Positions 2,953-32,637 of a DNA stretch of 32,921 nt are shown piece by piece. This DNA is from a virus, in IMG/VR virus record IMGVR_UViG_3300045120_000218, positions 1 through 32,921 of that record, one strand, 5' to 3'. Position numbers and translations under genes: made by a program. The notes below the pieces were generated by a model, which saw only the letters and a program-made list of their open reading frames with translations, was not told the origin of the DNA and searched no databases. Position 1 is the first letter of the stretch; each line of letters opens with the position of its first letter.

Positions 2953-3201
2953 TTACTCGCCGTGTACGTCTTCAGCACCAGTGAGGCTCGGGCCGTCACC
3001 GGGCCCCAAGCCGGAGCCTGCGAGCGAGAGGAGAAGCGAGCCGACGGCGCCGGAGATGTAGAGCACGACCACGTCCTTGAAGTCGCTCACGTGCGCGATG
3101 TTGAGGATGCCGTCTCCGGCGATCCACGTCGTCGTCACAGCGATGGCACCGCCGCGCACCATGCGCTCAGCGGCGGCCTGCCAGAAGTTCTTAGTCCACA
3201 T
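2953..3201 (-). CDS. Holin, r1t-like, 82 residues
   Basis: Small membrane protein that should permeabilise the cytoplasmic membrane so the endolysin reaches the wall. It starts MWTKNFWQAAAERMVRGGAI, resembling the W...AAERxxxxxAQ opening of the r1t/phage-holin-1 family. Two hydrophobic stretches follow (about residues 17-35 and 43-64), with a short soluble Gly/Pro/acidic tail. Its ATG overlaps the endolysin stop by one base (TGATG), the classic lysis-pair arrangement. The hairpin about 50 bases past its stop closes the late operon. Position and topology support the call well; the subfamily is less certain. Confidence 0.85.
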   Translation of the reverse strand: MWTKNFWQAAAERMVRGGAIAVTTTWIAGDGILNIAHVSDFKDVVVLYISGAVGSLLLSLAGSGLGPGDGPSLTGAEDVHGE

Positions 3202-3758
3202 CAGAGCATCACCTTCTTGTAGTCGAGGTTCTTCGGGTTGGCCTTGATGATCCGACGTCCTCGCGGAGTCTGGGCGAGCACGGCGGCCACACGTCGGTAG
3301 GCCGCGTTCGCGAAACCGACGTTGATCTGGTGGTGCATCGAATCGGTCTTCGCCGTGCTGCCAGGGTGGCTCGGCCAGTCACCGCCCCACTCGGCCATCT
3401 TGCCCCCGGCGATCCGGTTCACGATCGCCAGCGTGGCGTGCACCATCTTGATCTGGGCCCGGGTGAACGAGTGTGCCGTCGGCGTGTTCGAGGGGTGCTT
3501 GTTCCAGTTCAGGTCGTCGGCCTGCCCATAGGCGTGCAGGCTCCACGTCGAGGTGCCCGCGATGTGGCGGTCGTTGTAGCCGCCTTCGTCCACCGGGTCG
3601 TTGCCGGGCCCGTCGAGGCGCTCGACCAGATCGTTGTAGCGCAGGATCATCCACATCAGGATGAAGCCGAGTGCGTCTCGGCGCAGCGTGAACCGGCGGG
3701 CGACGCCGGGCAGGCTCCACGTGTAGAGCAACTTGCTGCCAGGTTCGAGGTGCGGCAT
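3201..3758 (-). CDS. Endolysin, M15-family peptidase, 185 residues
   Basis: Peptidoglycan peptidase of the M15 (VanY / L-Ala-D-Glu or D-Ala-D-Ala peptidase) type. The zinc motif SxHxxGxAxD appears as SLHAYGQADD at residues 73-82, giving ligands H75 and D82. The second half, DSMHHQ at 139-144, supplies the acidic residue and third ligand (D139, H142). No separate wall-binding domain or signal peptide is seen, so it depends on the downstream holin. The start at 3758 has GAAGGAG about nine bases upstream. It lacks the amidase/glycosidase multidomain layout of many mycobacteriophage LysA proteins, and no LysB-type mycolyl esterase is visible next to it. Confidence 0.92.
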   Translation of the reverse strand: MPHLEPGSKLLYTWSLPGVARRFTLRRDALGFILMWMILRYNDLVERLDGPGNDPVDEGGYNDRHIAGTSTWSLHAYGQADDLNWNKHPSNTPTAHSFTRAQIKMVHATLAIVNRIAGGKMAEWGGDWPSHPGSTAKTDSMHHQINVGFANAAYRRVAAVLAQTPRGRRIIKANPKNLDYKKVML

Positions 3759-3804: not shown

Positions 3805-6756
3805 CTAGGAGCCGGTCACGGTCCCCGTGGACTGGTCGAGGTACCCGCCCGCATTGTCGTAGGCCCTGATGACGTACGTGGCCGCCACAGCGTGCCCCGG
3901 GGTGTCGTCGTAAGTCGCGATCCGGGTCGTCGCGTCCGGGCGCAGCCCGGTGACGATCCGCACACCGTTGCGGAAGATGTCGAAGTAGACCGTCTTGTTC
4001 GAGGCGGCGCCGTCAGCAGCGTTCGCCGAGATGTGCATGAGCCCGTTGGCCGAGTCGATGTTCAGCGTCACCGTCGGCGTCACCGGGATCGAGGGGTTCA
4101 CCGAGACGGCCTGGTTCGCCGTAACGCCGGGCGCAGCGACGATGAGCGTCGCCGTGGTCAGCGTGGTGATCCCGATCGAGCCACCGGCCACGGGCGGCCC
4201 GGTGTAGACCACCTGCTTGGTGCCGCCGGTCGTGAGGATGTCGGTGCCGGTACCGATCGAGGCCGAGGCGTTCGCCGTGCCGTTCCACGAGACGGTCAGC
4301 CCGGTGCCGTTGGCATTCGCACCGGAGAACCACGCCCCGTACCCGAGGGTGGCGTCCTCCTCGTAGACGAGTTCGATCAGGAAGTCCTTCAGGTACGTGA
4401 TCTGGCCCGTGTCGGCGTCCCCGAAGTTACCGGTGACTGAGGACGACGGGATCAGCATCACGTAGACGCCCTGGGCCTTCGGCGTGAAGACGAGGTCGAC
4501 CACGGTGTAGGTGCCCGCGGCGTTCGCCGAGAGGTCCACGAAGGTGCTCTCCAGCGGGCCGGTCGAGTCCCAGACCATGAGTTGAAACTGCCGGGTGTCG
4601 TTCGCCAGCGCCGAGGCGATTCCGAGGTGAGCCCGGTACGCCGTGCCGACGATCAGGTTGTTGAACACGGTCGTGTGCTGGTCGGCGTCGAGTCCGGTGG
4701 TCAACGTCCACGAGATCTTGCCGTTCTTGCCCGACACCCCACCGAAGGACGCGTCGTTCCCGACGAGGTTCGCGTTCGAGGTCGAGGACCAGACGACGTT
4801 GGTCGTCGCGGCGAATCCGGGGTCGGTGGCGAGGTTGACCCGGGAGCCTCCACGGCGCCAGCCTGAGCCGAAGTAGTTGCGCGCCGAGCCCGTGTTCGGG
4901 TCGGTGCCCGAGAGCGTCGCCTTGTACGCAGCGAGCGGGGTCTGGGTGCCGATCGTCCACGTGACGGTCGCGGCGTTGATGAACGTGGCGCCCGCGGTCG
5001 GGGCCGTGATCGTGACCGGCGTCGTGGCACCCGCACTGATGCCCGTCACGATCTGGCGCACCCACCCCGAGGAGTCGCCGTCGGTGTCGACGACCTGCAC
5101 GAAGATCGCGACGGACGAGCCGACCGCCGGAGCGGTGAAAGCCCGTGTAAACGACACGAGGGTGGGATCAGCGACAGTGATCGTGGTGATGCCAGCGTTC
5201 GGGCTCGTGGCCGTGAGCGTGGTGTTCGTGCCGACGAGGTAGTGGTCGATCCCGACGCCGCCAGCCTTGGCCGGGCTGTAGCGGAACGACATGTTGAACG
5301 AGGAGGCACCGAGGACGGAGGTGACCGGGTTCGTCCACGCCACGCTCGGCGGGAGTTCGTAGGTGATCCGGGCGAAGCCGCCGAGCCCGTCGGTGGCCGA
5401 GTAACTCGGTGCCGGGTACGGCGGGCGAGCCCCACCGAGCAGGACCGGGTTCGTGACCACCTGGTCGGCGAAGTTCGAGCCACCACCACCACCACCGCCG
5501 TGCGAGGTCGCACCCGTGGCCGAAGAGGTGCCGTAGTTCAGGAAGCCGTGCCCACCACCGCCACCGCCGAAGTAGCCGCCTCCACCACCGCCACCGCCCG
5601 AGCAGAAGTCGTCAGTGCCGCCAGCAGCGTTCGCGCCCGTGCCGCCCTGCGCGCTGCTCCCCGCGGTGCCGCCAGTGCCGCCGACACCCTTCACACCGCC
5701 CGAGAGCGGGCCTCCACCGCCACCACCGGTCGCAGCAGCGGCCACAGCGGCTCCAGAGGCCGCGTGACGGCCTGTGGCGGTCGTTCCAGCGCCTCCCGAG
5801 GTGGCGAGGCCACCGGAGGCCGTCGGCGCGCCCCCGTTGGCCGTAGAGGTGCTCCCGCCGAGCCCTCCGCGGCCCCAGCCGCCGGTCAGGTAGTTGATCG
5901 AGGAGAGCCAGACGTGGTTGATCGTGTCGGTGGGCCCGGTGGCCGTCGTGTCGGCGCCGAACGGCGGCGAGGGGGCCGTCGGACAGGCTACGAGAGCCCA
6001 CGCGCTCGGCGCGCCCTGCGTCTTGTTCCACGTGCCGCTCGCGCCACCGGAGCCGCCAGCCACGAGCACACGCTGAGTGGTCGCGTCACCGCCCCGTCGG
6101 ATGTCGGTAGCGCCGCCTCCACCGCCACCGGAGGACCCGACGACGCGCCCGTGGGCGTCCGTCTTGACGGTCCACTTGGTCGCGTTGAAGCCGCCGCTGT
6201 AGGTCGCGTTGCATCGCTTCACGAGGTTGTTCGTCGTGTCGAGCCAAAGATCGTTCAGGGTGGCCGCGGCGGGGCCGGGGGACGTCGAGGTGAACTGCAC
6301 CTTGGTGGTCAGCGCGTTGTAGAGGTTCTGGTAGCAGAGCGCAGCGTTGCCACCCGGGCCGCCACCGTTGAAGCCTGCGGCACCGCCCTTGGCGTACCCG
6401 GAGACGGCACCGTTGCTCAGCCGTCGAACCGAGGAGATGCCGGGCCCACCGTTGCCGCCGACGACGACGTAGAACGCCTCGCCCGGGGTCGTCGCGATGT
6501 CCCCGGCGGCGTACCCGCCGTTGTTGGCGTAGGAGTAGCCGAGTTGCGGCTCCTGGCTCGGGTTGTTCGAGTAGTACTGGTTCTTCGGCGCGCTCCCGCC
6601 GACGAGCACGTTCGTCTTCGCTGGCGCCCACGCGACCGACGAGCCCATGCCTCCCGCAGCGCCCCAGCACTCGAAGCGGCAGGTCGTGACCCCTTCGGGC
6701 ACGACGAACCGCTGAGCACCTGTGGCGGTGTAGCGGAAGTTCTGGATGACTCGCAC
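3805..6756 (-). CDS. Glycine-rich minor tail protein / tail fibre, 983 residues
   Basis: Large protein at the distal end of the tail operon, likely a fibre or receptor-binding component. Residues 1-465 form a glycine-rich domain that starts RVIQNFRYTATGAQ and contains many GGGGGG tracts, as in Gly_rich_2-type phage adhesins; the DNA there is GGT/GGC low-complexity repeat (about 5480-5720). Two Ig/FnIII-like segments follow at about 467-570 (SVAWTNPVTSVLG) and 577-635. A jelly-roll-like carbohydrate-binding region covers about 640-815 (NLATDPGF onward), then a further beta-rich tail. No catalytic motif was seen. A homologous-looking glycine-rich domain occurs in the 936-residue protein at 28985-31795. 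Confidence 0.85.
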   Translation of the reverse strand: MRVIQNFRYTATGAQRFVVPEGVTTCRFECWGAAGGMGSSVAWAPAKTNVLVGGSAPKNQYYSNNPSQEPQLGYSYANNGGYAAGDIATTPGEAFYVVVGGNGGPGISSVRRLSNGAVSGYAKGGAAGFNGGGPGGNAALCYQNLYNALTTKVQFTSTSPGPAAATLNDLWLDTTNNLVKRCNATYSGGFNATKWTVKTDAHGRVVGSSGGGGGGATDIRRGGDATTQRVLVAGGSGGASGTWNKTQGAPSAWALVACPTAPSPPFGADTTATGPTDTINHVWLSSINYLTGGWGRGGLGGSTSTANGGAPTASGGLATSGGAGTTATGRHAASGAAVAAAATGGGGGGPLSGGVKGVGGTGGTAGSSAQGGTGANAAGGTDDFCSGGGGGGGGYFGGGGGGHGFLNYGTSSATGATSHGGGGGGGSNFADQVVTNPVLLGGARPPYPAPSYSATDGLGGFARITYELPPSVAWTNPVTSVLGASSFNMSFRYSPAKAGGVGIDHYLVGTNTTLTATSPNAGITTITVADPTLVSFTRAFTAPAVGSSVAIFVQVVDTDGDSSGWVRQIVTGISAGATTPVTITAPTAGATFINAATVTWTIGTQTPLAAYKATLSGTDPNTGSARNYFGSGWRRGGSRVNLATDPGFAATTNVVWSSTSNANLVGNDASFGGVSGKNGKISWTLTTGLDADQHTTVFNNLIVGTAYRAHLGIASALANDTRQFQLMVWDSTGPLESTFVDLSANAAGTYTVVDLVFTPKAQGVYVMLIPSSSVTGNFGDADTGQITYLKDFLIELVYEEDATLGYGAWFSGANANGTGLTVSWNGTANASASIGTGTDILTTGGTKQVVYTGPPVAGGSIGITTLTTATLIVAAPGVTANQAVSVNPSIPVTPTVTLNIDSANGLMHISANAADGAASNKTVYFDIFRNGVRIVTGLRPDATTRIATYDDTPGHAVAATYVIRAYDNAGGYLDQSTGTVTGS
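5144..5153 (+). repeat. Dispersed CGTGTAAACG word, copy 3
   Basis: Exact decamer inside the 983-residue fibre gene. The coding strand reads it as SFTR codons (TCG TTT ACA CGG), using TTT and ACA, codons disfavoured in this GC-rich genome. Confidence 0.5.
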
Positions 6757-19301: not shown

Positions 19302-19481
19302 CTAGCCGTTCCGCTTGACCTGGAACTTGGGTCCGGTGCTCGGCTTGCTCAGCGCCGACCAGTCGTACTGCCCGGGGTGGCGCCGGTCGAGTTCATCGCG
19401 GGCCTCCTTGCGACCCGCCACCGCGTCGGTGAGCAGGTCTGCGTCGTGCATGTCCGCGATCTTCACGTGGATCATCGTCAT
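19302..19481 (-). CDS. Small hypothetical protein, 59 residues
   Basis: ATG 19481 overlaps the 600-residue gene's stop by four bases (ATGA) and its TAG ends one base before the next ATG, so it is fitted between two genes. Begins MTMIHVKIADMHDADLLTDA and ends in a basic KFQVKRNG tail. The middle (RKEARDELDRRHPGQYDWSA) is helical and charged. A GAGAGGGCGG tract precedes the start. Function unknown; it may be a partner of the flanking basic proteins. Confidence 0.72.
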   Translation of the reverse strand: MTMIHVKIADMHDADLLTDAVAGRKEARDELDRRHPGQYDWSALSKPSTGPKFQVKRNG

Positions 19482-21280
19482 GGTGTGCCGCCCTCTCTGA
19501 AGAATCCGTACTTGGCGTCGTACTTGGCCGTCATCGCGTCGTGTGCCGCCCGCCGCTTCTTCGTCTCTTCGTCCTCGACCCGGCGCTTGTTCCTGGCAAG
19601 TTCGGTGGCGTGCCGGGTTGCCACTGCGTGTGTAAACGCTTCAGCGAACCCCTCGTGCGGGTTGCTCCGGGCGTAGCGCGCGCCGGGCACCAGACCGAGC
19701 CCACCGGAGGGCAGAACCTCGTGGTGGAAGTCCAGCGCGTCGTGATTGCGTCCGCCGATCCCGGTGTGGGCCTGCCGGTTGTCAATGACGTGGCCGATCT
19801 CGTGGATCAGTGTGCCGTGCGCCTGCGTCGGGAAGTCGACGTGACCGGCGGTGAAGTGCTCCTTGGTCGCTGCGCGCTGAGCCTCGGTCAACGGGTTGGT
19901 GTCGCGCATCGCGGAGTTCGGGCTCATGTGCACGTTCTGGGTGTCACCGTGCCGGACGTAGGCCAGTGTCTCGCTGCGCTTGGTGGCCCAGTTCCTGCCA
20001 CTGCTGTACTTCGCATCGACGTGGAAGGTGAGCGGGTTGTGGGCACCCATCCCCTTCGCATCGTGGACGTAGTTCTCCACGACGTCGGTCGTCACCCCGG
20101 CGAGTCGGTGGGCGATCTCGGTGTTCATCTTCTTCGCCGTGACGCCGTCGATCCGAACCTGGGTGCCGTTGTCGTGGATCAGATGCACCATGCCGGGCTC
20201 GGGCACGTAGTCCCGTAGCAGGCCCTTCCCAGCGGACAGGTCACCGTTCATTCCGTATGTGGCCTGGATCGCGGCAGTGCGTCCGTCGATCGCGGTGAAG
20301 CCGTGCACCTTCTCCTTGCCGAACAACTTGTGCGCAGCAGCGAGTGACTCGGCGGCGAGGGCCTCGTGGCGCTTGTCGAGTTCGGCCTGGATCTGGCTCG
20401 ACTCGATGCCGCCGATCTCACCGTCACGGTGTCGCGCGGTCGCCCGGAGGTCGGCGGGCGACTTGGTGCTGAGTCGTCGGAACGCAGGCTCAGGGCCGCC
20501 GGGGATCAGCGGGGTCTCGCGGCGGTACTCCTTGATCCACTGCGAGCCGCTGAAGCGGTAGCGGTACTCGTACCCCGGGGTGGAGGCGGCGTTGAGGACG
20601 TCGCCGGACTTCGGCGAGAGCAGCATGTCGTAGGGGTCGCGCTCGACCTTGGCCTTCGGCGGTTTCAGCGACCGCTTCTCCTTCAGGGCCTCCGCCTTGG
20701 CAAGCGACGCCTGACCCTTCGGGGTGAGCACGTACGTGGGGCGCGTCCACGTGCCGTTGTCCTGCGCCTCCCTCGACCACTTGACGTCGTGCGACAGAGC
20801 GATGTGCCCCCGGACGTGCAACGACTGGATCGTGCTGCCCGTGTCCGGGAGGGCGTAACGCTGGTTCTGGAACGTGGCGTTCGGGTTGGCAGCGTTGAAC
20901 TCCTTCAACGCCTTCAGGTACTCGTGCTGCCGAACCGTGATCGGCTCGGCCAGCGAGATGTCCACTTTCGGCGCCTGGGGAGCCGCTGGAGCGGCGGACT
21001 CGGGCTTGCGCTTCTCGACCGGGACGATGCTCAGCGGACGGGTCGCCGAGAGGCCACGGGAGTTGATCGTCTTGACGCCCTCGGGCTCGTGGATCGAGAC
21101 CTTGCCCGCCTCGATCAGCCGTTTCGCCGCGGCCTTCTTGCCGAACAGCGTCGCGGTGCGCGCGTCCAGCGGGATATAACCGTGCTTCCAGTGATACGAG
21201 GTGCCCGGGATGTGCCGGTGGCGCGCGTCGGCGGCGAGGTCAACGTCGGGCTGCTTCAGCCGGTATTTCTTCTCAGCCAT
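19478..21280 (-). CDS. Virion-associated protein with C-terminal zinc metallopeptidase, 600 residues
   Basis: ATG 21280 follows the upstream TAG directly. Residues 1-60 carry DVDLAADARHRHIPG and WKHGYIPLDA (31-40), the motif shared with the 501-residue protein. Residues 60-300 are basic, with Pro/Ala linkers and a winged-helix-like stretch (SLHVRGHIALSHDVKW; YVLTPKGQASLAKAEALK). Residues 300-600 hold a zincin: HEIGH at 493-497 (HExxH) and NPHEGFAEAF at 541-549 offering a downstream Glu ligand, a pattern of toxin-type and MuF-associated metallopeptidases. It may process head proteins or be ejected into the host to cut a target. The peptidase signature is seen; the role is inferred. Confidence 0.82.
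   Translation of the reverse strand: MAEKKYRLKQPDVDLAADARHRHIPGTSYHWKHGYIPLDARTATLFGKKAAAKRLIEAGKVSIHEPEGVKTINSRGLSATRPLSIVPVEKRKPESAAPAAPQAPKVDISLAEPITVRQHEYLKALKEFNAANPNATFQNQRYALPDTGSTIQSLHVRGHIALSHDVKWSREAQDNGTWTRPTYVLTPKGQASLAKAEALKEKRSLKPPKAKVERDPYDMLLSPKSGDVLNAASTPGYEYRYRFSGSQWIKEYRRETPLIPGGPEPAFRRLSTKSPADLRATARHRDGEIGGIESSQIQAELDKRHEALAAESLAAAHKLFGKEKVHGFTAIDGRTAAIQATYGMNGDLSAGKGLLRDYVPEPGMVHLIHDNGTQVRIDGVTAKKMNTEIAHRLAGVTTDVVENYVHDAKGMGAHNPLTFHVDAKYSSGRNWATKRSETLAYVRHGDTQNVHMSPNSAMRDTNPLTEAQRAATKEHFTAGHVDFPTQAHGTLIHEIGHVIDNRQAHTGIGGRNHDALDFHHEVLPSGGLGLVPGARYARSNPHEGFAEAFTHAVATRHATELARNKRRVEDEETKKRRAAHDAMTAKYDAKYGFFREGGTP
19629..19638 (+). repeat. Dispersed CGTGTAAACG word, copy 6 (9 of 10)
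   Basis: TGTGTAAACG, matching the nonamer core exactly. It falls inside the metallopeptidase domain (coding strand AFTH) immediately after the Glu ligand region. Confidence 0.45.
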
Positions 21281-24164: not shown

Positions 24165-25910
24165 CTAGATGTCGCTGAAGTCCACATCGTTCACGGACAG
24201 GGTATCGAACGTGAAGTTCTCGAACCCCTCGTAGCCGTAGGCGGCGATCTGGTCGCGGTCCCGGGCCATCGTGTGTCCGTACTCGTAGCCATCGCTCACG
24301 CCGGGCTCCCCGGTGATCCAGAAGGCCGCGATCACGGCGTCCGCGGAGTCCGTGGAGCGCCCGATCCGGCGCTTGATGTCCTCCTTGGCCTCGACCTTGA
24401 TCTTGCCGCCGACGTGGTGGAGCCACTTCGGCGAGACCAGTTCCGCGATCATGTCCTCGTCATCGGGGAGCGCGATCTGAGAGCCGAAAGCGGGGTCGAG
24501 CAACTCCCGGAGGTTCCACCACGCAGCGGCCCGGTCGTTGAGGAACCGGAACTGCCCGAGTTTGTCGCGCCGGTTGCTCTGCGCCGAGGCGTTGAACGGC
24601 ACCGTCTGGCCGACGATCAGATCATCAGCGCGGTAGCGCCGCAGCAGGTCGTAGACACCCGAGCCGATCCCGATCACGTCGACCACAGCGGTGCTGCGCG
24701 GCTCGTGCAGGAAGGCCGCGGCACGGTCGACGATCTCGGTCGTGTCACCGACGCGCATCTTCTCCAACTTCGTGACGTGGGAGCCGTATCGGTGCGCGAA
24801 CACGGTTTCGTCGTCGCCGGAGCGGGCGACGTCGATCCCGAGGATGAAGTTGCCGGGCCGGTGGCGCTGCACCCGGCCTGCTCGGATGTCGTGCCAGCGC
24901 TCCACGGCACGCTGCACCCACCCCAGCGGGATGACGCCCTCGGTCGCCGAGGTCGGGAAGACGCCACGGACCTTCGCGGTGAACAGAGAGGAGCCCTCAC
25001 AGGCGCTACGGAGGCGCTCGTGGAGGGCCTCGCGGCCCTGCATGGTGAGGATGTGCTCGGCAGTGCCCGCGGAGACGCCTGCCCACCGTGCGATGCGCTC
25101 CTCGATCCACTGCTCGTTGATGAGCAGCGGACGGAGTTCGTCGGGCACCTCCTCCTCGCTGTAGGGGATACCTTCGGCGGCCATCAGGTGCGCCAGCAGC
25201 GGCCACTTCGGGTTCTCCGGGTCCGGGCCCACCACGCGGTCGTAGGTGATGTTCGGGGAGCGCAGACCGTCGAGGTGGATCGTGTTCCAGCCCTGGTCGG
25301 TCGAGCAGACCTTGGCGAAGTGGCTCGCCGGATCGTCGGGGTTGCCGATCGCCAGCACCCGGGCGTTCTCGTTGGTCGCCAGCGAATCCACGGCGTCGTA
25401 CAACTGCTGGGAGACGCCGCACGCCTCGTCGATGACGATCAGCACGAACTCGGCGTGGATACCTTGAAACGCGCTCTGCTCGTAGTCGGCGGGCTTGCGA
25501 CCGTAGCCGACTAGTTCGCCGTCGATGTACCACTGCGGGTACCCGGCGCGGTTGATCTGGCCGACGAGCCCGGCCTTCTTGTGGATCTTGGTGACCTCGC
25601 GCCACATGATCGCTGCGACCTGCGCCGCCGAGGGGGCCGTGGAGACGACGAACGCCGAGCCCGGAGGGTGGGAGGAGATCCACCACGCAATCGCCCGGGA
25701 GGCGATGAACGACTTGCCCATGTCGTGCGCGCTGTGCACGGCGGTGTACCGGTTGTCGCGCACCGATTCGAGGATCTCGGCCTGCTTGGACCAGACCTCT
25801 TCGCCGTTGCCGCGCACCCACAGCACCGGGTCGTCAGCCATCATGTCGGCGTCGGCAGTGCCGAACATCCGAGCCATCATCTCGGAGTAGGTCTCGATCT
25901 CGGCGCCCAT
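24165..25910 (-). CDS. Terminase large subunit, 581-582 residues
   Basis: DNA-packaging motor and nuclease. Two adjacent ATGs occur at 25913 and 25910; the second is better spaced from GGAG. Counting from 25913, Walker A is SAHDMGKS (61-68), Walker B VLIVIDEACG (157-165), with a GNPDDPASHF coupling region near 190. The RNase H-like nuclease has LGIDVARSGDDE (358-369, D361), VVDVIGIGSG (D412) and RSTDSADAVIAAFW (about 525). No small terminase subunit was recognised in the window. A long hairpin lies right upstream. Call is firm. Confidence 0.96.
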   Translation of the reverse strand: MGAEIETYSEMMARMFGTADADMMADDPVLWVRGNGEEVWSKQAEILESVRDNRYTAVHSAHDMGKSFIASRAIAWWISSHPPGSAFVVSTAPSAAQVAAIMWREVTKIHKKAGLVGQINRAGYPQWYIDGELVGYGRKPADYEQSAFQGIHAEFVLIVIDEACGVSQQLYDAVDSLATNENARVLAIGNPDDPASHFAKVCSTDQGWNTIHLDGLRSPNITYDRVVGPDPENPKWPLLAHLMAAEGIPYSEEEVPDELRPLLINEQWIEERIARWAGVSAGTAEHILTMQGREALHERLRSACEGSSLFTAKVRGVFPTSATEGVIPLGWVQRAVERWHDIRAGRVQRHRPGNFILGIDVARSGDDETVFAHRYGSHVTKLEKMRVGDTTEIVDRAAAFLHEPRSTAVVDVIGIGSGVYDLLRRYRADDLIVGQTVPFNASAQSNRRDKLGQFRFLNDRAAAWWNLRELLDPAFGSQIALPDDEDMIAELVSPKWLHHVGGKIKVEAKEDIKRRIGRSTDSADAVIAAFWITGEPGVSDGYEYGHTMARDRDQIAAYGYEGFENFTFDTLSVNDVDFSDI

Positions 25911-25927
25911 CATGTCTCCGAGAATAG

Positions 25928-25978
25928 ACGAACCCCCTGCGTAGACCTGCCGGGAGGCCGTCTAGCGAGGGGGTTCGT
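25928..25978 (-). terminator. Branched hairpin immediately upstream of the terminase
   Basis: An 11-bp perfect stem (ACGAACCCCCT with complement), an internal loop, a 5-bp stem TAGAC/GTCTA and an apical GCC-GGGA-GGC. Its base is about 15 bases before the terminase ATG, so it may be a terminator for the upstream adhesion module, an attenuator, or a leader structure affecting terminase translation. Arms resemble the other two late hairpins. Confidence 0.7.
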
Positions 25979-26122: not shown

Positions 26123-26704
26123 CTAGACGCCGATCTGCCAAGCCTTGAAGCCGGGACGGTCGTGGAACGCGGCCCGAGCGGGCATCAGCGCCGAGGAGGC
26201 GTCGGGGAGCGCGCGAACCTGCACCACGGTGCCGTACTTGTCGGCCATCTTGCGGATCTCGCGCCAGATCGCCACGTTGTTGAAGCGGTTGTCGCCCTTC
26301 GGCTCCAGCAGCGCGATCACCCGGCGCTCAGCGCACCGCTTCAGCAGCGATTCGAGCCGGATGATGTGGTAGCGGACTGCTACCCCGGCGACGAGCCGGT
26401 CGATCTGCTCGTCGGTGAGGAACCGGAACTGCTTGCTGTGCGGGATCTTGCGCAGCGGGTCGCGGAACCCGTCGTGCACGCACGGCAGCGGCCAGTGATT
26501 GCCGTAGACGGTGCCGTTGTAGGAGATCGAGAGGTCGATGTCGATCTTCTTGAAGTGGTGTTTAAACGCATACTCGACCCCACGGAGCGAGTTCTCCACG
26601 TGCTTGGGCGTCGGCGCCTCGACGTGGTAGATCCCGTGTTGGTGAGGGAGCGGCCAGCGCAGCGAGCCGTCGAGCGCGTCGGGCTTCACGAAGTACGAGA
26701 TCAT
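26123..26704 (-). CDS. Glycerophosphodiester phosphodiesterase-like enzyme, 193 residues
   Basis: ATG 26704 overlaps the preceding stop by four bases; the frame to 26755 is artefactual. The pattern follows the GDPD family: HQHG at 21-24 (for HRG), VENSLRGVEYAFKHHFKK at 36-53 (for ENT...A...GA), DIDLSISYNGTVYGNHW at 55-71 (for E-x-D...HD), and LLEPKG at 132-137 (for E.K). At 193 residues it is shorter than bacterial GDPD (about 240-300), and the HxH and second acidic positions are partly changed, so catalysis is uncertain. In an adhesion module it may trim glycerol-phosphate or similar wall polymers. Family call is moderate. Confidence 0.68.
   Translation of the reverse strand: MISYFVKPDALDGSLRWPLPHQHGIYHVEAPTPKHVENSLRGVEYAFKHHFKKIDIDLSISYNGTVYGNHWPLPCVHDGFRDPLRKIPHSKQFRFLTDEQIDRLVAGVAVRYHIIRLESLLKRCAERRVIALLEPKGDNRFNNVAIWREIRKMADKYGTVVQVRALPDASSALMPARAAFHDRPGFKAWQIGV
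26559..26568 (+). repeat. Degenerate copy of the dispersed word (8 of 10)
   Basis: TGTTTAAACG, containing the perfect palindrome GTTTAAAC, lies in the GDPD-like gene. Possibly the symmetric variant of the same site; weaker evidence than the exact copies. Confidence 0.3.
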
Positions 26705-28161
26705 GACGTACCTGTCCCGTTCGGGAAGGCACGTGCGTAGAGCCCGAGGCCCCACTTCTCAGCACCCGAGCCCGGCCCAGTCGTCGGGTGGAGTTGGTCG
26801 ATCGTGTTCGCCGCAGTCAGCAGCGGCCATGCATCGAAGGACCAGACCCCGGCCTGGCTTGCGGCCCACTGCTGGAGGATCGCCGAGCGCGCCGCGCGCA
26901 GTTCGATGCCCTGCTGGGTGATGGAGAACGAGCCTCCGAGGCCGACTGGGTTCTGACCGACGGCGATGATCGGAACGTAGGGGATCAGGGCCTTGATGTT
27001 GGTGACCAGGGCGGCGTAGGCGGCGAGCCAGATGGCGCGGGACTGGGTCAAGTCGTTGTGGGCCGTGTTGATGAGCAGCACGGCTTGGCCGTGCGGCTGG
27101 TGCACGATCGCTCGCCGTGTGGCGTTGTCGAAGTAGGCGACGTTCTGCCCTGACTGGGAGCCGTTGAGCAGCATCAGCACCGGGGCGCCGCCGAACGCCA
27201 CCGTGGTCTCGGCGCTCTGGTAGTCCCAGTCATCGGGCAGGTACGGGACCACCGAGTTGCCGAACGAGCCCGCAACGACGATGCCAGGGTGCACCTCGAT
27301 CTTGTGGATCTTCCCGGCGAACGGGCTGGAGAAGCCAGCGGTGAACGAGCCGATCTGGTAGGCCCCGGTGCCGCCGTTGATACTCGTCACGCCTGCCGTG
27401 GTGATCGTGGTCCCGAGTTGCGTCCACGCGGTGCCGTCAGTGCTGTAGTAGAACTTCACGTCGTTGCCCGACGCACCGTTGTCGACATCGAAGACGACAC
27501 GGACCCACAGCGGGTTGCCGTCGCCGGGGTTCGCCGTCGCGGGAATCGTGACGGTGGAGTCCTTCTCGCCCACACCGGAGGAGCCGGTGGTGGACCAGTT
27601 GAACCCGAGCGCACCGGTCGTCTTCAGGATGAACAGCCAGGAGCGGTTGCTGCCGGTGGTGTCCCACTTCGCCGCGATGGTCTGGTCCCCGGCAGGAGTC
27701 CAGGTGGTCGGGTTGATACGCACCCGGATGTCGATGTCCCCGGTGATCGCCGCGCCGGAGAACTGGAGGGCGCCGGGCGAGGCGGTCGTGAATGCGGCGT
27801 GGCGCTCAGCCCCGGCGGCCAGGGTGCCGGTCTGCGTGGTGGTCGGCTGGTCGTAGGACTGGTTCGTGTCGTTCCAGCGCCGCTCCTGAACCGTGTACCC
27901 CGGGAAGTCTTGGGCGAGTCGCTTGACGAAGACCTGGGGCCATTCGTCGACGAGAGTGCCGGTGCCGACCTCCTTGCCGTCTCCGGTCGAGTCACCGATC
28001 AGAGCGATACAGGTTGAGCGCTGCCCGCGGCGCAAGGTCGCGAGGACACCGGCGAACGCGTTGCCGAGACCTGAGCCGAGACGGCCCCCTGCTGTGATCG
28101 TGCCGTTCGCTGCGATTGCATCGGCGATGGAGGCTCCGTCTGCGTGCACCGGGTCCGTCAT
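26701..28161 (-). CDS. SGNH hydrolase with inserted lectin-like domain, 486 residues
   Basis: Esterase-type protein of the surface module. Residues 50-110 start the SGNH fold: IALIGDSTGDG, with GDS at 56-58. Residues about 115-310 insert a LamG/concanavalin-like jelly-roll (FTTASPGALQFSGAAITGDI; IAAKWDTTGSNRSWLFILK). The fold resumes at about 330 with LLINTAHND (the Asn/His block) and ends with DQLHPT (D455, H458), completing the Ser-Asp-His set. It overlaps its neighbours by four bases on both sides. Likely removes acetyl or other ester groups from host wall glycans while the inserted domain binds sugar. The substrate is not visible. Confidence 0.8.
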   Translation of the reverse strand: MTDPVHADGASIADAIAANGTITAGGRLGSGLGNAFAGVLATLRRGQRSTCIALIGDSTGDGKEVGTGTLVDEWPQVFVKRLAQDFPGYTVQERRWNDTNQSYDQPTTTQTGTLAAGAERHAAFTTASPGALQFSGAAITGDIDIRVRINPTTWTPAGDQTIAAKWDTTGSNRSWLFILKTTGALGFNWSTTGSSGVGEKDSTVTIPATANPGDGNPLWVRVVFDVDNGASGNDVKFYYSTDGTAWTQLGTTITTAGVTSINGGTGAYQIGSFTAGFSSPFAGKIHKIEVHPGIVVAGSFGNSVVPYLPDDWDYQSAETTVAFGGAPVLMLLNGSQSGQNVAYFDNATRRAIVHQPHGQAVLLINTAHNDLTQSRAIWLAAYAALVTNIKALIPYVPIIAVGQNPVGLGGSFSITQQGIELRAARSAILQQWAASQAGVWSFDAWPLLTAANTIDQLHPTTGPGSGAEKWGLGLYARAFPNGTGTS

Positions 28162-28643
28162 GACGAGGTCTCCTCTGGTTCGATCGGCTCAAGAGAGGCC
28201 GGGGCGGCTGCAATCTTACCGATGGCGTTCCACATCGCGATCTGTTCGGCGCTGGCGGCCTTCCGAGCCTCCTCGGAGGTCTCCAGGTGGTCCCTCAGTT
28301 CGGTGCCCACCCTGTCTTGGGTGTGCCGGATGACGGTGACCTCGTCCTTGACCGCCGAGAGGTCGAAGCGCACGTCTGCGACCGCGGCCAGCATCCGGCT
28401 GCGGGAGTGCTCACCGTCGGCGCGGACGTCGTCGATCATGTCCTTCAGCGTCGGGGTATCGCTGCTGTGGTGGTTCACCGTGACCTGGTGGTGTGTTTCC
28501 TTGACCGGAGCGAAGAGGTTCTTCTCCAGGTTCGGCAGCAGCACGAACCGATACCCGAGCCCGAGCAGTGCCAGGACCGAGATGGTGACGCCGAGAGCCG
28601 CCGACATGAGGCCGAGCAGTGAGGTGGTATCCATCGCAACCAT
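28158..28643 (-). CDS. DUF2746-like membrane protein with coiled coil, 161 residues
   Basis: Residues 8-35 form one transmembrane segment (LLGLMSAALGVTISVLALLG). Residues 45-62 read VKETHHQVTVNHHSSDTP, then TLKDMIDDVRAD and a long charged helix (to about 145) likely forming a coiled coil. This matches actinophage DUF2746 proteins of unknown function, often next to lysis or tail genes. Start may be ATG 28643 or ATG 28634; neither has a clear ribosome site. It could be a membrane-anchored spanin-like or exclusion protein; not shown. Confidence 0.75.
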   Translation of the reverse strand: MVAMDTTSLLGLMSAALGVTISVLALLGLGYRFVLLPNLEKNLFAPVKETHHQVTVNHHSSDTPTLKDMIDDVRADGEHSRSRMLAAVADVRFDLSAVKDEVTVIRHTQDRVGTELRDHLETSEEARKAASAEQIAMWNAIGKIAAAPASLEPIEPEETSS

Positions 28644-28661
28644 TACGCGCGCCCGCCCTTC

Positions 28662-28988
28662 TCAGTCGTTGCCGGAGATCACGAGTGATCCCGCCGGGAT
28701 GATAGGAATTTCCGGTGTGTCGGTGATCTTGATCCAGACTGGGTGCTCACCGAGCGCCGGGAGCGGGACCGTGTCCCCGAGTAGCACCTTGGCCTTGCGG
28801 CTGTAGTACGTCGTGTCCACGCCGTTGACCTTCTCGGTGCTCACCACCGAGGGCGCGGCGTCCCACGTCGCGGGGTAGTACGTGGTGCCGCGATCGAAGG
28901 AGAACGCGATGGTTTGTGCGGACAGATCAGCCGTAGCGACGATGGTCCGCACCAGGTACTCGCGGGTTCCGACCAGCATCGTCGTCAT
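28662..28988 (-). CDS. Small beta-rich protein after the 936-residue fibre, 108 residues
   Basis: ATG 28988 overlaps the fibre stop by four bases (ATGA). A much longer open frame reaching 30869 on the same strand is out of frame with the fibre gene and not real. Begins MTTMLVGTREYLVRTIVATA; middle has YYPATWDAAPSVVSTEK; the end is HPVWIKITDTPEIPIIPAGS. The beta-strand, immunoglobulin-like look suggests a small structural or fibre-associated protein. Not identified. Confidence 0.75.
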   Translation of the reverse strand: MTTMLVGTREYLVRTIVATADLSAQTIAFSFDRGTTYYPATWDAAPSVVSTEKVNGVDTTYYSRKAKVLLGDTVPLPALGEHPVWIKITDTPEIPIIPAGSLVISGND

Positions 28989-31795
28989 CGGGCTTCCCAT
29001 CGTGAGTCGAGCGGAGTGTGCGCCTGGTACTTCTTCGCGTTGACCATCTCGGCGACCCACCGATCGGGGAGGGTCAAGGCGATCACCGTGATGTCCCGAA
29101 GTGTAACGACAATCGCCGTTGCCGAACCATTGAGGACGATCAGCGCGCCACCCGTGGAGACGATCAGCAGGTTGCCGGACAGGGTCAGGCTCGCGGTCGC
29201 CGAGGCTGGAGCGCCAGCGTTGCCGGACGCGGCGAGGTCGATCGAGGCGGTCGCGGACGTCGCTCCCTTCGCCACTGCGGAGGCCAGCAGGGTCAGCAGC
29301 GCCGAGGCTACGGCGGCCCCCTTCGGCGCTGCTGTGGCTCCCAGGGTGATCGAGCCGTTGGCGACTGCGCTCGCCAGCGCCGCGGTCGCTGCCGAGAGGG
29401 AGAGGGCCGCTGTAGCGCCCGCTGCGGCCTTCGCGTTGACGGCTGCGGAGAGGGTGATCGAGGCGGTGCCGGTCACTGCACTCGGGCTCGGCGTAGCGCT
29501 CGCCATCAGGACGATGTTGGCCTGCGCGGTGATCCCCTGCGTTGCGGCCAGCGTGATGAGCGCCGTTGCCGTGGCGGGTGCCTGCCCGGTGCCGCTGGCG
29601 CTCAGGGTGACCGAGCCGTTCGCCACGAACGAAGGTGTGGCCGAGCCGCTCAGCGTGATGAGTGCGGTCGCCGTGAACGAGGCCACCGCGGCTGCACCCA
29701 GCGTGATCGAGCCACTCGCTGTGACGGGCGCCTTCCCTGTTGCGCTGCCACTCAGCGTGATAAGCCCGGTCGCCGTGAACGAGGGGGTGGCGGCACCACC
29801 GAAGGTGATCGTGCCGGTAGCGGTCGCTGCGCCTGCTGCGTTTACACCACCGGACAGATCCAGGTTCCCGGTAGCGTTCGCGGCGCCTGCTGCGGCTGCG
29901 TTCCCGGTCAGGGTGATCGAGGCACTCGCCGAGGTCGGAAGCGCTGCCGCTGCACCAAGGGTGATCGTGCCGCTGGCGGTGAACGAGGCCACCGCGGCTG
30001 CACCGAGGGAGAGCGCTGCGGTCGCGCTCGCGGGTGCCTTCGCTGCCGAGGTGCCACCGAGGGTGAGGTTGCCGCCCCCGATGGTCGAGGCCGAGTAGGT
30101 GAACACCACGCGCCCGATCGAGCCTGCACCACCGTTGAACGTGCCAGCGATGGCACCACCACCACCACCACCAGGTGCGACACCGGGGTTGCCAGGAGCG
30201 CTCGCACTGCCGGTCGCTCCACCGGCACCACCGAGCGGCGCTGCACCCGCTCCACCGGCACCACCGTTGCCGAAAGCCACCCCCGCGACACCGTTCCCAC
30301 CGGACGTCTTGATCGTGCCGGTGCACGAGGCTGCTTGGCCGCCCTGTGCGACGCCGGGAGCGTTCGCGCTCGGACCACCAGAGCCGCCCTTCGCGACGAC
30401 GGTCGAGGTGTTGAACGTCGAGTCCCCGCCTGCGGTGCCGTTGATCGTGGCGCTGGTTCCACCCACACCTGCGGCGCCGACGACGTAAGAGTAGACCGTG
30501 CCGGGCACCACCGGGACGACGCTGCTGGCGTACGCACCACCACCAGCACCAGAGCCGGAGTTGCCGAGCCCGGCGCCGAACCCGCCGCCACCACCGGCAC
30601 CTTCGCACTCCACGGTGACGTTGAAGACGTTCGCCGGGCACGTCCAGGAGCCCGAGGACGTCTTGGTCTCGGTGAACGTCCCGGAGGCCACGATGTTGTT
30701 GTAGAGGACAGTCGCCATCGCGTTGTAGAGCGATCCGTCGGTGGCGCCGTGGATGTTGTCGGTGTAGTACAGCGAGCCCGGCGGCCCCGGGACGTTGTCG
30801 CCCATGTTGGCGAAGGCGAGGCCCTTCCAGTCGGCCACTTCGCGGATCGCGGCGACGTAGTTGGCCCACGGCTCAGCGAAGGCAATCGAGTTGCTCTCGT
30901 CCTGCGCGGCGCAGAGCATGATCGGCTTGGTGAAGCCGCGCGCTCGGATGTACTCGATGAACGAGGCGAGTTGCGCCTTGAACTGCGCGGCGGTCAGGTT
31001 GCCGCCCCCGGTGAACGCATCGTTTACACCGAGGTCCTGCATGATGAGCAGGTCCAGGTCCATCCCGATGATGTCGTCCATCCAGTTCGGGGTGCCACCC
31101 CAGCCCGCCATCCACTGCGCCACGGTGTAGGCGGCGTGACCGAAGTTGTGGACCTGAATGCCCTTGTTCTCGTCCCCGCTGTAGGCCGTGACGCCGTTCA
31201 CGATGAGGTTGTCGGTGCCACCGTTCGGCACGATCAGCACGTAGGAGGTCACCGCGGTCGCGACGTGCAGTTTGTTCAGCACCGTGGTGCCCGAGAGGTT
31301 CGAGAAGTTGACGTAGGCGGCGCCGTCGACCGAGTACTTGCCACCGGTCGCGCTGCCGCCTGCGGTGCCGAAGAAGTTGATGTCGAACGAGGTCCACGCC
31401 GAGGTGCCAGCGGGCACCAGGGCGTACATGTAGCCACCCGCGGCCACCGTGCTGTACCAGGTGGTGTGCGTGCCACCGAACCCGATCGTGTCGTCCAGGG
31501 TGCCGCCGACGTAGGAGAACGTCCCCGGCGAGTAGGAGAGGTGGTGGCCGAGGTACCCGAGACCGGTCGGCGTGCCGCTGGTGGGGAAGGAGGCGCGCAA
31601 CTTCGCGGCCAGGTAGTCCTCGGTCGTCTTCCCGGTGGCGCACGGGTAGCCCTCGGTCAGGGACGCACCGAGCATCCCGATGTTGACGCGCTTGGTCTCT
31701 CGCGCCGAGATCGCCGCACGGGTCGAGGCCAGCGGGTCAGGGGTGAGCGTGCGTCCGCTGGTGAACAGCGGGGACGGGACGGGCTGGGCGCCCAT
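28985..31795 (-). CDS. SGNH hydrolase / glycine-rich / repeat tail fibre protein, 936 residues
   Basis: Three parts. Residues 36-370 are an SGNH hydrolase: IGMLGASLTEG (Ser 45), LGVND (255-259) and TDNIHGATDG (D346, H349). Residues 375-560 are glycine-rich (GTFTETKTSSGSWTCP, then AGGGGGFGAG), similar to the 983-residue fibre. Residues 570-850 hold about 17 degenerate repeats of 16-19 residues with the core A(T/S)xxITLxxxA, a predicted beta-stack; the last 80 residues form a separate end. It likely projects from the virion, binds the host wall, and cuts ester groups. Predicted from motifs; virion location is inferred. Confidence 0.82.
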   Translation of the reverse strand: MGAQPVPSPLFTSGRTLTPDPLASTRAAISARETKRVNIGMLGASLTEGYPCATGKTTEDYLAAKLRASFPTSGTPTGLGYLGHHLSYSPGTFSYVGGTLDDTIGFGGTHTTWYSTVAAGGYMYALVPAGTSAWTSFDINFFGTAGGSATGGKYSVDGAAYVNFSNLSGTTVLNKLHVATAVTSYVLIVPNGGTDNLIVNGVTAYSGDENKGIQVHNFGHAAYTVAQWMAGWGGTPNWMDDIIGMDLDLLIMQDLGVNDAFTGGGNLTAAQFKAQLASFIEYIRARGFTKPIMLCAAQDESNSIAFAEPWANYVAAIREVADWKGLAFANMGDNVPGPPGSLYYTDNIHGATDGSLYNAMATVLYNNIVASGTFTETKTSSGSWTCPANVFNVTVECEGAGGGGGFGAGLGNSGSGAGGGAYASSVVPVVPGTVYSYVVGAAGVGGTSATINGTAGGDSTFNTSTVVAKGGSGGPSANAPGVAQGGQAASCTGTIKTSGGNGVAGVAFGNGGAGGAGAAPLGGAGGATGSASAPGNPGVAPGGGGGGAIAGTFNGGAGSIGRVVFTYSASTIGGGNLTLGGTSAAKAPASATAALSLGAAAVASFTASGTITLGAAAALPTSASASITLTGNAAAAGAANATGNLDLSGGVNAAGAATATGTITFGGAATPSFTATGLITLSGSATGKAPVTASGSITLGAAAVASFTATALITLSGSATPSFVANGSVTLSASGTGQAPATATALITLAATQGITAQANIVLMASATPSPSAVTGTASITLSAAVNAKAAAGATAALSLSAATAALASAVANGSITLGATAAPKGAAVASALLTLLASAVAKGATSATASIDLAASGNAGAPASATASLTLSGNLLIVSTGGALIVLNGSATAIVVTLRDITVIALTLPDRWVAEMVNAKKYQAHTPLDSRWEAR
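29839..29848 (-). repeat. Dispersed word, copy 10 (GGTGTAAACG)
   Basis: CGTTTACACC on plus; nonamer core exact. In the repeat region of the fibre gene, coding GVNA. Confidence 0.45.
31021..31030 (-). repeat. Dispersed word, copy 11 (GGTGTAAACG)
   Basis: CGTTTACACC on plus; coding GVND, so this copy overlaps the codons of the SGNH catalytic Asn block and could be constrained by protein. Confidence 0.4.
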
Positions 31796-32244
31796 CAGAC
31801 ATCCCAGACCTCAAACACGAAGCCCCCGAAGGCGTCGTTGGCGGTGGTGTTGTCCGGTCCGCCGTACTTCAGACCCGTCGAGGCCACGGCGGTCTCGACA
31901 CCGTAGGCGGCGTCCCAGTTCAGGGCCGCCGCCGGGGTGAGGCCGGTGACGATGAACGAGCCCTCCACGGTGAGGAAGGTGGTCGCTGCTGCGACGCCGT
32001 TGAGGAGCCCACCGGGAGCCACTCGGCCCCTCACGGTGGCACCCTGCATGACCCCGAGGAGGATCTGCGGGTACGTCGAGGCGCCGTGCAACGTGCTGGC
32101 AAGCCGCACCAGGACCCTCCCCGAGGAGGGCACGGTGAAACCCAGCCGCAGGTTCGTCGTGTCGATCGCCGTCATCGCGAGGTTGGCGGTCGTCGACTTG
32201 CTGACGGCGGTCGTCGGGTCGTAGCAGGTTCCAGCGAGCAGCAC
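31795..32244 (-). CDS. Putative minor tail protein, 149 residues
   Basis: GTG start at 32244 with GAGGAGG upstream; ends in a TGATG overlap with the 936-residue fibre start. A beta-sandwich-like product: LRLGFTVPSSGRVLVRLAST, then FIVTGLTPAAALNWDAAYGV, resembling small jelly-roll tail or receptor-binding proteins (C1q/TNF-like impression). Not assigned to a family; role inferred from neighbours. Confidence 0.72.
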   Translation of the reverse strand: MLLAGTCYDPTTAVSKSTTANLAMTAIDTTNLRLGFTVPSSGRVLVRLASTLHGASTYPQILLGVMQGATVRGRVAPGGLLNGVAAATTFLTVEGSFIVTGLTPAAALNWDAAYGVETAVASTGLKYGGPDNTTANDAFGGFVFEVWDV

Positions 32245-32262: not shown

Positions 32263-32637
32263 TCAGGTGGCGGACAAGGTGATCGCTGCGGCAGCGATGG
32301 TGATCGAGGCCGCGGTGACGCTGGAGCCGAGCGCTCCGCCGATGGAGTAGGTACCGGCGCCGTAGGTGCCCGAGGACCAGGTCCCGAAGTGGCTCACGGC
32401 CACCGAGCCGAGCGTCGAGAAGGTCAACGCGGTCGAGTTCGTCTTGGTGCCACCGGACGCTGCGTTCCACGAGCACGCCTGCCGGGCGTAGGACCCGGAG
32501 TTGGCGTTCTCGTTGGCGCCCGTGGTGCTCGGGCTCGCCGTGTGCAGGGAGACGAAGGGGATCGTGTTGACCGAACCGGCGGTGCCGTTCAGACCGTCGA
32601 GTGCCGCGTTCTCAGCGGCGGCGGATGCGAGTGCCAT
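32263..32637 (-). CDS. Gp80-like putative minor tail protein, 124 residues
   Basis: Starts MALASAAAENAALDGLNGTA, followed by FVSLHTASPSTTGANE, then SYARQACSWNAASGGTK, LTFSTLG, VSHFGTWSSGTYGAG. This order (NAALD, SLHTA.P..TG..E, YARQ..W..AS, THFG.W) matches a small actinophage structural family often labelled gp80-like tail protein. No enzyme motif. Its position before the fibre block supports a tail or baseplate role. Confidence 0.78.
   Translation of the reverse strand: MALASAAAENAALDGLNGTAGSVNTIPFVSLHTASPSTTGANENANSGSYARQACSWNAASGGTKTNSTALTFSTLGSVAVSHFGTWSSGTYGAGTYSIGGALGSSVTAASITIAAAAITLSAT

Follow-up and report, generated by a model that had tools for sequence, protein, structure and literature searches.

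In the available text of the reports concerned, the SGNH fibres of phages G7C and Possum take O-acetyl groups off surface polysaccharide during adsorption (PMC9569702), the SGNH fibres of Klebsiella prophages are esterases with no depolymerase activity (PMC13123978), and wall teichoic acid is the proposed target of the GDPDs in enterococcal phage tails (PMC10194240). In the sections of the two further papers that we draw on, tail genes lie upstream of the gene for the terminase large subunit (terL) in Arthrobacter phages of cluster AQ, with tail or lysis genes at this place in clusters AQ, AM and AU (PMC5513430), and cluster S mycobacteriophages carry minor tail genes in unusual places (PMC9872701). 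Here we analyse a block of genes at 26123-31795, on the minus strand, of the IMG/VR virus record IMGVR_UViG_3300045120_000218, in which two SGNH proteins of 936 and 486 amino acids (aa; SGNH936 and SGNH486), a membrane protein (TM161) and a GDPD-like protein lie just before terL. The record is linear, has 32,921 bases without end repeats and is probably a fragment of a virus genome; we call this whole stretch the window.

We consider it reasonably probable (roughly 60%) that the genes of the block form the downstream end of an operon for adsorption fibres, encoded just before the packaging genes. The gene order, the protein families and their motifs, the exchange between phages and the recurring order of fibre, a 112-aa protein (g112) and packaging genes are observed directly; the presence of the products in the virion, their substrates and the order in which they act are inferred. 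SGNH936 would be a fibre that keeps its C-terminal repeat stalk and end while its N-terminal head is exchanged, the head being in this case an SGNH esterase with a glycine-rich domain, and g112 would be its fixed partner. Both SGNH proteins would most likely strip ester (e.g. O-acetyl) groups from glycopolymers of the host wall or surface during attachment. The GDPD-like protein may add the cleavage of glycerophosphodiester bonds in teichoic-acid-type polymers; this is the weakest step, as it needs a shortened fold to be active.

SGNH936, g112 and the 18-residue-repeat fibres

From the upstream end, the minus-strand late genes run g87, g124, g149, SGNH936, g112, TM161, SGNH486, GDPD-like gene and terL. 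Short gaps or overlaps join all genes from g87 through the GDPD-like gene: the stop codon of g149 and the start of SGNH936 share one base, SGNH486 and TM161 overlap by four bases, and 209 bases separate the downstream end of the block from terL (24165-25913, minus; Pfam Terminase_6N 1.3e-5, PHROG 2 1.6e-33). The original prediction, made from the sequence without database searches, had listed the SGNH, GDPD-like and membrane protein genes; all four are real minus-strand genes that a codon-usage test scores strongly as coding, but the list had missed g112 (28662-29000, minus), a gene recognised by its coding score and by its matches in three Streptomyces prophages.

In the SGNH block scheme, block I holds the serine, block III is of the GxND type and block V reads DxxH. 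SGNH936 (28985-31795, minus) shows these motifs in order, as GASL with S45, GVND at residues 256-259 and DNIH with D346 and H349 (blocks at 43, 256 and 346), and its residues 1-375 match Lipase_GDSL_2 above the curated cut-off (37.7 against 32.9 bits, E 4e-9). The glycine-rich and repeat parts foreseen for one of the two hydrolases are both present, the former at 380-567 (Gly_rich_2, 6.1e-11) and the latter at 569-890 with a period of 18 residues (identity 0.303; the best of 200 shuffles is 0.229), and a C-terminal end that may be conserved follows. The protein also matches PHROG 863 (tail, 6.3e-17) and PHROG 6202 (tail fiber, 1.4e-9), and when its last 60 residues were compared with a 45-residue profile of 13 fibre ends, 2 of 1000 shuffles reached its score, a marginal result. 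A glycine-rich domain common to SGNH936 and the 983-aa fibre of the window was unsupported (BLAST E 0.53). Judged by its sequence, SGNH936 looks like a fibre of the 18-residue-repeat type that bears an SGNH N-terminus.

The partner protein ties this fibre to a wider group. BLAST matches of g112 in the Streptomyces prophages L054, L055 and L056 range from E 3e-7 to 2e-5, and a hidden Markov model built from the three prophage proteins finds the g112 of the window at 1.2e-7. In these prophages, whose TerL proteins are 36-38% identical to that of the window, a fibre-type gene of 212-301 aa is followed by a fibre of 860-1088 aa, g112, a gene of 116-160 aa, a TerS-like gene and TerL. The best period of all three fibres is 18, above 200 shuffles, and none of the three has an SGNH match in Pfam. 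A viral scan with the g112 alignment gave 16 loci, two of them without an upstream open reading frame in reach. Among the other 14, the reading frame directly upstream of g112 has a best period of 18 above all 50 shuffles in eight, a period of 18 not above the shuffles in one, other periods above the shuffles in three and no period in two. The downstream genes of five g112 loci were checked by Pfam, and a terminase or portal was found in each: terminase and portal in L169, a terminase in L170, a portal-NUDIX-MuF fusion downstream of fibre and g112 in L174 and L166, and in L165 a terminase with a Pfam match below the cut-off, the assignment of which rests on TerL BLAST. The two fusions are triple ones of 1030 aa (L174:10693-13785) and 1126 aa (L166:2720-6100), an observation in its own right. 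Among 200 genomes sampled at family level around the host of L055, g112 matched in 10 genomes at 11 places, four of which (one being the L055 prophage itself) match the fibre C-end profile next to g112 at 8.2e-6 or better. Neither PHROGs nor the 50,697 phage records gave a match for g112, Pfam gave none above the cut-off, and one fibre of the g112 group, searched in the same records, had no match either.

SGNH936 and g112 are, by these comparisons, placed where the 18-residue-repeat fibre type usually sits, before the packaging genes; terL does follow g112 in the window, but with TM161, SGNH486 and the GDPD-like gene in between. The original prediction had contrasted the block with the 983-aa fibre, which indeed follows the tail genes (3805-6756, minus; ALK_LTK_GRD 1.2e-4, below the cut-off), and had taken this split layout as abnormal and as a sign of separate acquisition. 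That argument is not supported, since fibre and g112 recur before packaging genes in Streptomyces prophages and environmental contigs, and tail genes upstream of terL have been published. What appears to be new here is a fibre of this type with an SGNH head, together with a fibre/g112 family that is unnamed in Pfam, in PHROGs and in the 50,697 phage records as searched. As a tentative extension, which we hold possible but do not favour, SGNH936 and g112 may belong to an unrecorded family of actinophage adhesins, with a fixed C-terminal stalk of 18-residue repeats and a g112 partner right before the packaging genes and with N-terminal heads that are swapped, the gap between g112 and terL serving as a second site of exchange, where further enzymes (SGNH486 and the GDPD-like protein among them) are gained. 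The polarity of such an adhesin, its C-terminus fixed and its N-terminus exchanged, would be the reverse of that of ordinary tail fibres. If the family is real, then g112, the 18-residue repeats and the C-terminal end would offer a handle for finding unnamed host-recognition proteins in soil actinophages, and the region before the terminase would be a standing adsorption locus with exchanged esterases, which bears on host change.

SGNH486 and exchange upstream of terL

SGNH486 (26701-28161, minus) carries its motifs in order as well, GDS with S58, HND at 368-370 and DxxH with D455 and H458 (blocks at 56, 368 and 455), and they are invariant in an alignment of three sequences. With SGNH936 above the Pfam cut-off and SGNH486 below it but with its blocks in place, the two predicted SGNH hydrolases are both borne out. 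The insert announced for SGNH486 exists as a beta-rich domain at about residues 134-294, common to PHROG 5313, although the label LamG finds no Pfam match. The N-terminal part matches PHROG 15641 ("tail fiber protein", 1.9e-20), and relatives occur in 19 phage records, where the full-length ones are annotated as tail fiber, minor tail protein or hydrolase; the genomic regions of three of the 19 were read.

The closest relatives, at 69% and 66% identity, lie in L043 and L044, each downstream of a major capsid gene (Phage_capsid_4 2.9e-9 and Phage_capsid 1e-62, respectively), and share no other window protein by BLAST. This position, the two tandem SGNH genes right after the capsid gene of Arthrobacter phage Casserole and the match of g124 (32263-32637, minus; a 124-aa fibre-type protein of the Gp80 family, Pfam PF23140 E 5.6e-13) to PHROG 240 ("head protein", 5.6e-14) would fit head-attached esterases, with SGNH486, and perhaps SGNH936, sitting on the capsid as fibres for the binding and modification of surface polymers. 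We regard this as quite improbable: other relatives of SGNH486 are encoded at tail positions or after lysis genes (Teagster gp16, Shoya gp25), and the PHROG matches of the SGNH proteins are mostly to tail families. With fibre features on both SGNH proteins and a fibre-family neighbour in g124, virion esterases that alter the host surface in adsorption are the best reading. By analogy with the fibres of G7C, Possum and the Klebsiella prophages, both would take ester groups off the wall or capsule polymers of an actinobacterial host. The idea of surface-acting esterases is supported, whereas the term depolymerase, also used in the original prediction, finds no support, the Klebsiella fibres being esterases without that activity as far as the available text goes. 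As part of the adsorption-operon reading and with the same degree of confidence, SGNH486 is probably a second SGNH esterase, one that moves horizontally and bears an inserted domain of the binding type.

By TerL, the closest named phages are Streptomyces phages (e.g. Intolerant, 47% identity), and environmental relatives reach 73%. To follow the block among such relatives we used 108 loci around TerL relatives, with at most 10 kb on each side and a match threshold of E 1e-3; the set stands apart from the window's own loci (L001, L002), the loci of other queries (L035-L037, L043-L049) and those of Intolerant (L003, L004), which were compared separately. The GDPD-like protein, SGNH486, TM161, g149, g124 and g87 have a match in none of the 108 loci, g112 in three (L054-L056) and SGNH936 in one, L010, where a relative of its N-terminus (L010:5480-6511, 25% identity, GDSL_2 1.8e-19) lies downstream of a MuF gene and not before TerL. 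The modular exchange that had been suspected is supported by these absences and the 66-69% identity of SGNH486 in otherwise dissimilar phages, and the block is, on this comparison of sequences, exchanged between phages.

Other relatives fill the same place differently. The L007 locus, with a TerL 73% identical, has fibre proteins, one protein with four helices and another with a single helix, an Exo_endo_phos protein and a fibre of the head-decoration type; L087 and L088 have a collagen-like fibre, L009 a matrixin-type protease, and L089 and L091 a glycoside hydrolase of the Rv2525c type that includes a peptidoglycan-binding domain. Fibre-type proteins upstream of TerL in four loci (L087:362-1111, L089:5691-5897, L009:5623-6324, L007:1759-2772) have a small N-terminal domain in common (GTI..ITP..V..DGS..). 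Of the 108 loci, 35 encode, upstream of TerL and on its strand, a protein of some 200-250 aa that has a KHGG-type motif and is absent from the window; its distance is 1 kb or less in 21 loci and 1.9-8.7 kb in 14, and this spacing indicates that a variable stretch before TerL is common in the group; the protein is labelled as small terminase subunit only in Actinoplanes phage phiAsp2.

Phosphodiesterases of different families were also considered as a rule for this slot, and the idea was rejected with too few cases, the support being confined to L007 and L101, where an Exo_endo_phos protein (L007:3751-4560, 1.9e-6) and a PLDc_2 protein (L101:5378-5881, 1.6e-19) adjoin small membrane proteins before TerL. 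An Exo_endo_phos profile of three sequences, from the three of 20 fetched loci that showed the searched motif expression, gave E 0.042 for L008, with controls from 0.22. Whole-record family scans found GDPD in 0 of 22 and 0 of 26, Exo_endo_phos in 1 of 22 and PLDc_2 in 2 of 35. A 204-aa protein of L009 was likewise rejected as a GDPD, because its score with the window protein falls within the range of shuffles (30 of 500 attain it).

The GDPD-like protein, TM161 and neighbouring genes

The GDPD-like gene (26123-26704, minus) most likely starts at 26704, with an ATG that overlaps the stop codon of SGNH486, and encodes 193 aa rather than the 210 aa expected from a start at 26755; the ATGA overlap points to probable coupling of its translation with that of SGNH486. 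Pfam, PHROGs and the PDB gave no match, PF03009 in particular none at E <= 10 with HMMER filters, and the viral and genome contigs searched held no close relative. A profile of nine GDPDs from actinobacterial and other host genomes (nine of 20 fetched loci, those showing the GDPD motif expression) finds the protein at E 4.9e-4 in an hmmsearch of 17 sequences, and also lists 12 of the 16 others (window or relative proteins and shuffles), the best at 0.25. With hhalign the E value against the GDPDs is 1.1e-4 (best control 0.068) at a probability of only 28%. The motifs comprise EN at 37-38, HD at 77-78, LExK at 133-136 and a DxD at 55/57 in place of the GDPD ExD; in an alignment on the GDPD ligands, D55 (for E), D57, H77 and E134 align, and the first His of the degenerate HRG is ambiguous (H21 or H27). 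What had been described as a GDPD-like enzyme is probably a distant and shortened GDPD relative: the profile match stands, while the protein is smaller than stated, falls outside Pfam and lacks the last third of the fold. Phosphodiester stripping is accordingly the weak part of the original prediction, the protein being reduced, divergent and devoid of a fibre domain.

The length of 193 aa against a barrel of about 245 residues, the missing C-terminal third and the degenerate HRG motif would also suit a decaying, inactive remnant; we think this unlikely for a gene with an intact frame, a strong codon-usage score (94.6) and most metal and acid-base positions kept. A somewhat doubtful, though less remote, proposal is that the GDPD-like protein and TM161 are unrelated intracellular cargo, for lipid or signalling metabolism or superinfection exclusion, and that only the SGNH genes are linked to the virion. 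The GDPD-like protein has neither a hydrophobic segment fit for a signal peptide nor a fibre part, and different enzymes stand before terL in neighbouring phages (Exo_endo_phos in L007, PLDc_2 in L101, the matrixin protease in L009). Against such cargo stand the probable translational coupling to SGNH486 and, in the available text of PMC10194240, stand-alone GDPDs of about 240 aa in the tail modules of enterococcal phages.

The membrane protein of the cluster was correctly foreseen: TM161 (28158-28643, minus) has by hydropathy one transmembrane segment, followed by a long charged region that, judged by eye, is probably a coiled coil. It has no Pfam match and weak PHROG matches only (best 0.014). 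Its position directly upstream of the hydrolases, the three- to four-helix and one-helix proteins that adjoin hydrolases in the slot of relatives, the bare domain of the GDPD-like protein and, in the part of PMC5513430 drawn on, endolysins upstream of terL in Arthrobacter clusters AM and AU could together suggest a second lysis or cell-exit cassette, in which TM161, the GDPD-like protein and an SGNH enzyme open the wall or envelope late in infection. A lysis role for the block becomes less likely with the lysis genes elsewhere (2953-3758), namely a canonical M15 peptidase endolysin (3201-3758, minus; Peptidase_M15_4 1.5e-6, above the cut-off) and an r1t-type holin (2953-3201, minus; Phage_r1t_holin 4.7e-6, just above it). 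The SGNH proteins moreover bear fibre domains, and TM161 was rejected as a homologue of the one-helix proteins of L006, L007 and L009, to which it shows no recognisable kinship; we give this cassette little credence.

Several points weigh against assigning the block to an adsorption-fibre operon. The contig ends only 17 bases past g87, so the start of the operon lies outside the record. Neither the GDPD-like protein nor TM161 has fibre features, SGNH486 stays under the Lipase_GDSL_2 cut-off (26.8 bits, E 8.5e-6; its relative Casserole gp17 scores 45.1 bits), and AlphaFold2 models are poor, both for SGNH486 with two relatives (mean predicted local distance difference test score, pLDDT, 37.7) and for the GDPD-like protein alone (42.6). 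Sequence searches of the PDB yielded no match. A first C-end profile, from three prophage fibres, missed SGNH936, and with a shorter profile of 32 residues 11 of 1000 shuffles reach the SGNH936 score and another window protein scores equally high. Several of the eight loci with period 18 are near relatives, L165 being apparently the L056 prophage again.

Upstream of SGNH936, g149 (31795-32244, minus; 149 aa) has a coding score and no Pfam or PHROG family. The gap before terL holds an inverted repeat (25928-25978, arms of 19 nucleotides, 84% complementary) that ends 15 bases before the terL start codon and folds as a hairpin, with a folding z of only -1.39 for the whole gap; it may serve as a terminator, as an element of the packaging site or in regulation. 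An exact 13-base search of the other fetched loci found no occurrence of it, and Rfam has no match anywhere in the window. Beyond terL the minus strand continues with portal (Portal_Mu 1.6e-33), capsid (Phage_capsid_4 4.7e-8), tape measure (named by length and position only), tail genes, the 983-aa fibre, the endolysin, the holin and an SNF2-type helicase gene. In the head region, a 600-aa protein (19478-21280, minus) has an HExxH motif and a sub-threshold Pfam match to ATLF (16.4 against 27.4 bits), and may be an enzyme that is injected or linked to the capsid; at a similar place, Streptomyces phage Intolerant carries a gene annotated as ADP-ribosyltransferase. A Cys-rich protein of 197 aa (2235-2828, minus) follows the lysis genes, and in L017, L018, L023, L024, L030, L032 and L033 it lies 4-6 kb upstream of TerL, on the opposite side of the map.

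Comparison with known systems

The enterococcal tail GDPD (PF03009) resembles that of the window, in the text available, as a stand-alone GDPD domain near tail genes, whereas the window protein is undetected by PF03009 and lacks its last third. The "hydrolase" gp3 of the Gordonia phage group of Eddiemania and Chikenjars is an SGNH protein at the left genome end, followed by lysis genes in both phages and, further downstream, by the terminase in Eddiemania; in Chikenjars, whose gp3 has an Mtd_N domain, the terminase is beyond the stretch read. Its similarity to SGNH936 is low (E 5e-3 to 6e-2). Three named phage proteins, gp25 of Arthrobacter phage Shoya, gp16 of Curtobacterium phage Teagster and gp17 of Casserole, are related to SGNH486 at 31-39% identity across 73-92% of its length; these copies follow the holin, the tape measure or the capsid gene, whereas SGNH486 precedes terL.

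The Streptomyces prophages L054-L056 share with the window a g112 homologue, an 18-residue-repeat fibre and the same position before the terminase; unlike the window, they have a TerS-like gene adjoining TerL and no TM161, SGNH486 or GDPD-like gene between. Like G7C gp63.1, Possum gp66 and the Klebsiella prophage receptor-binding proteins, as the available text describes them, the window has an SGNH domain inside a fibre-type protein, which would be of the esterase and not the depolymerase kind. It differs from these SGNH fibres in belonging to an actinobacterial-type phage and in carrying, in SGNH936, the SGNH domain N-terminal to a glycine-rich domain and 18-residue repeats.

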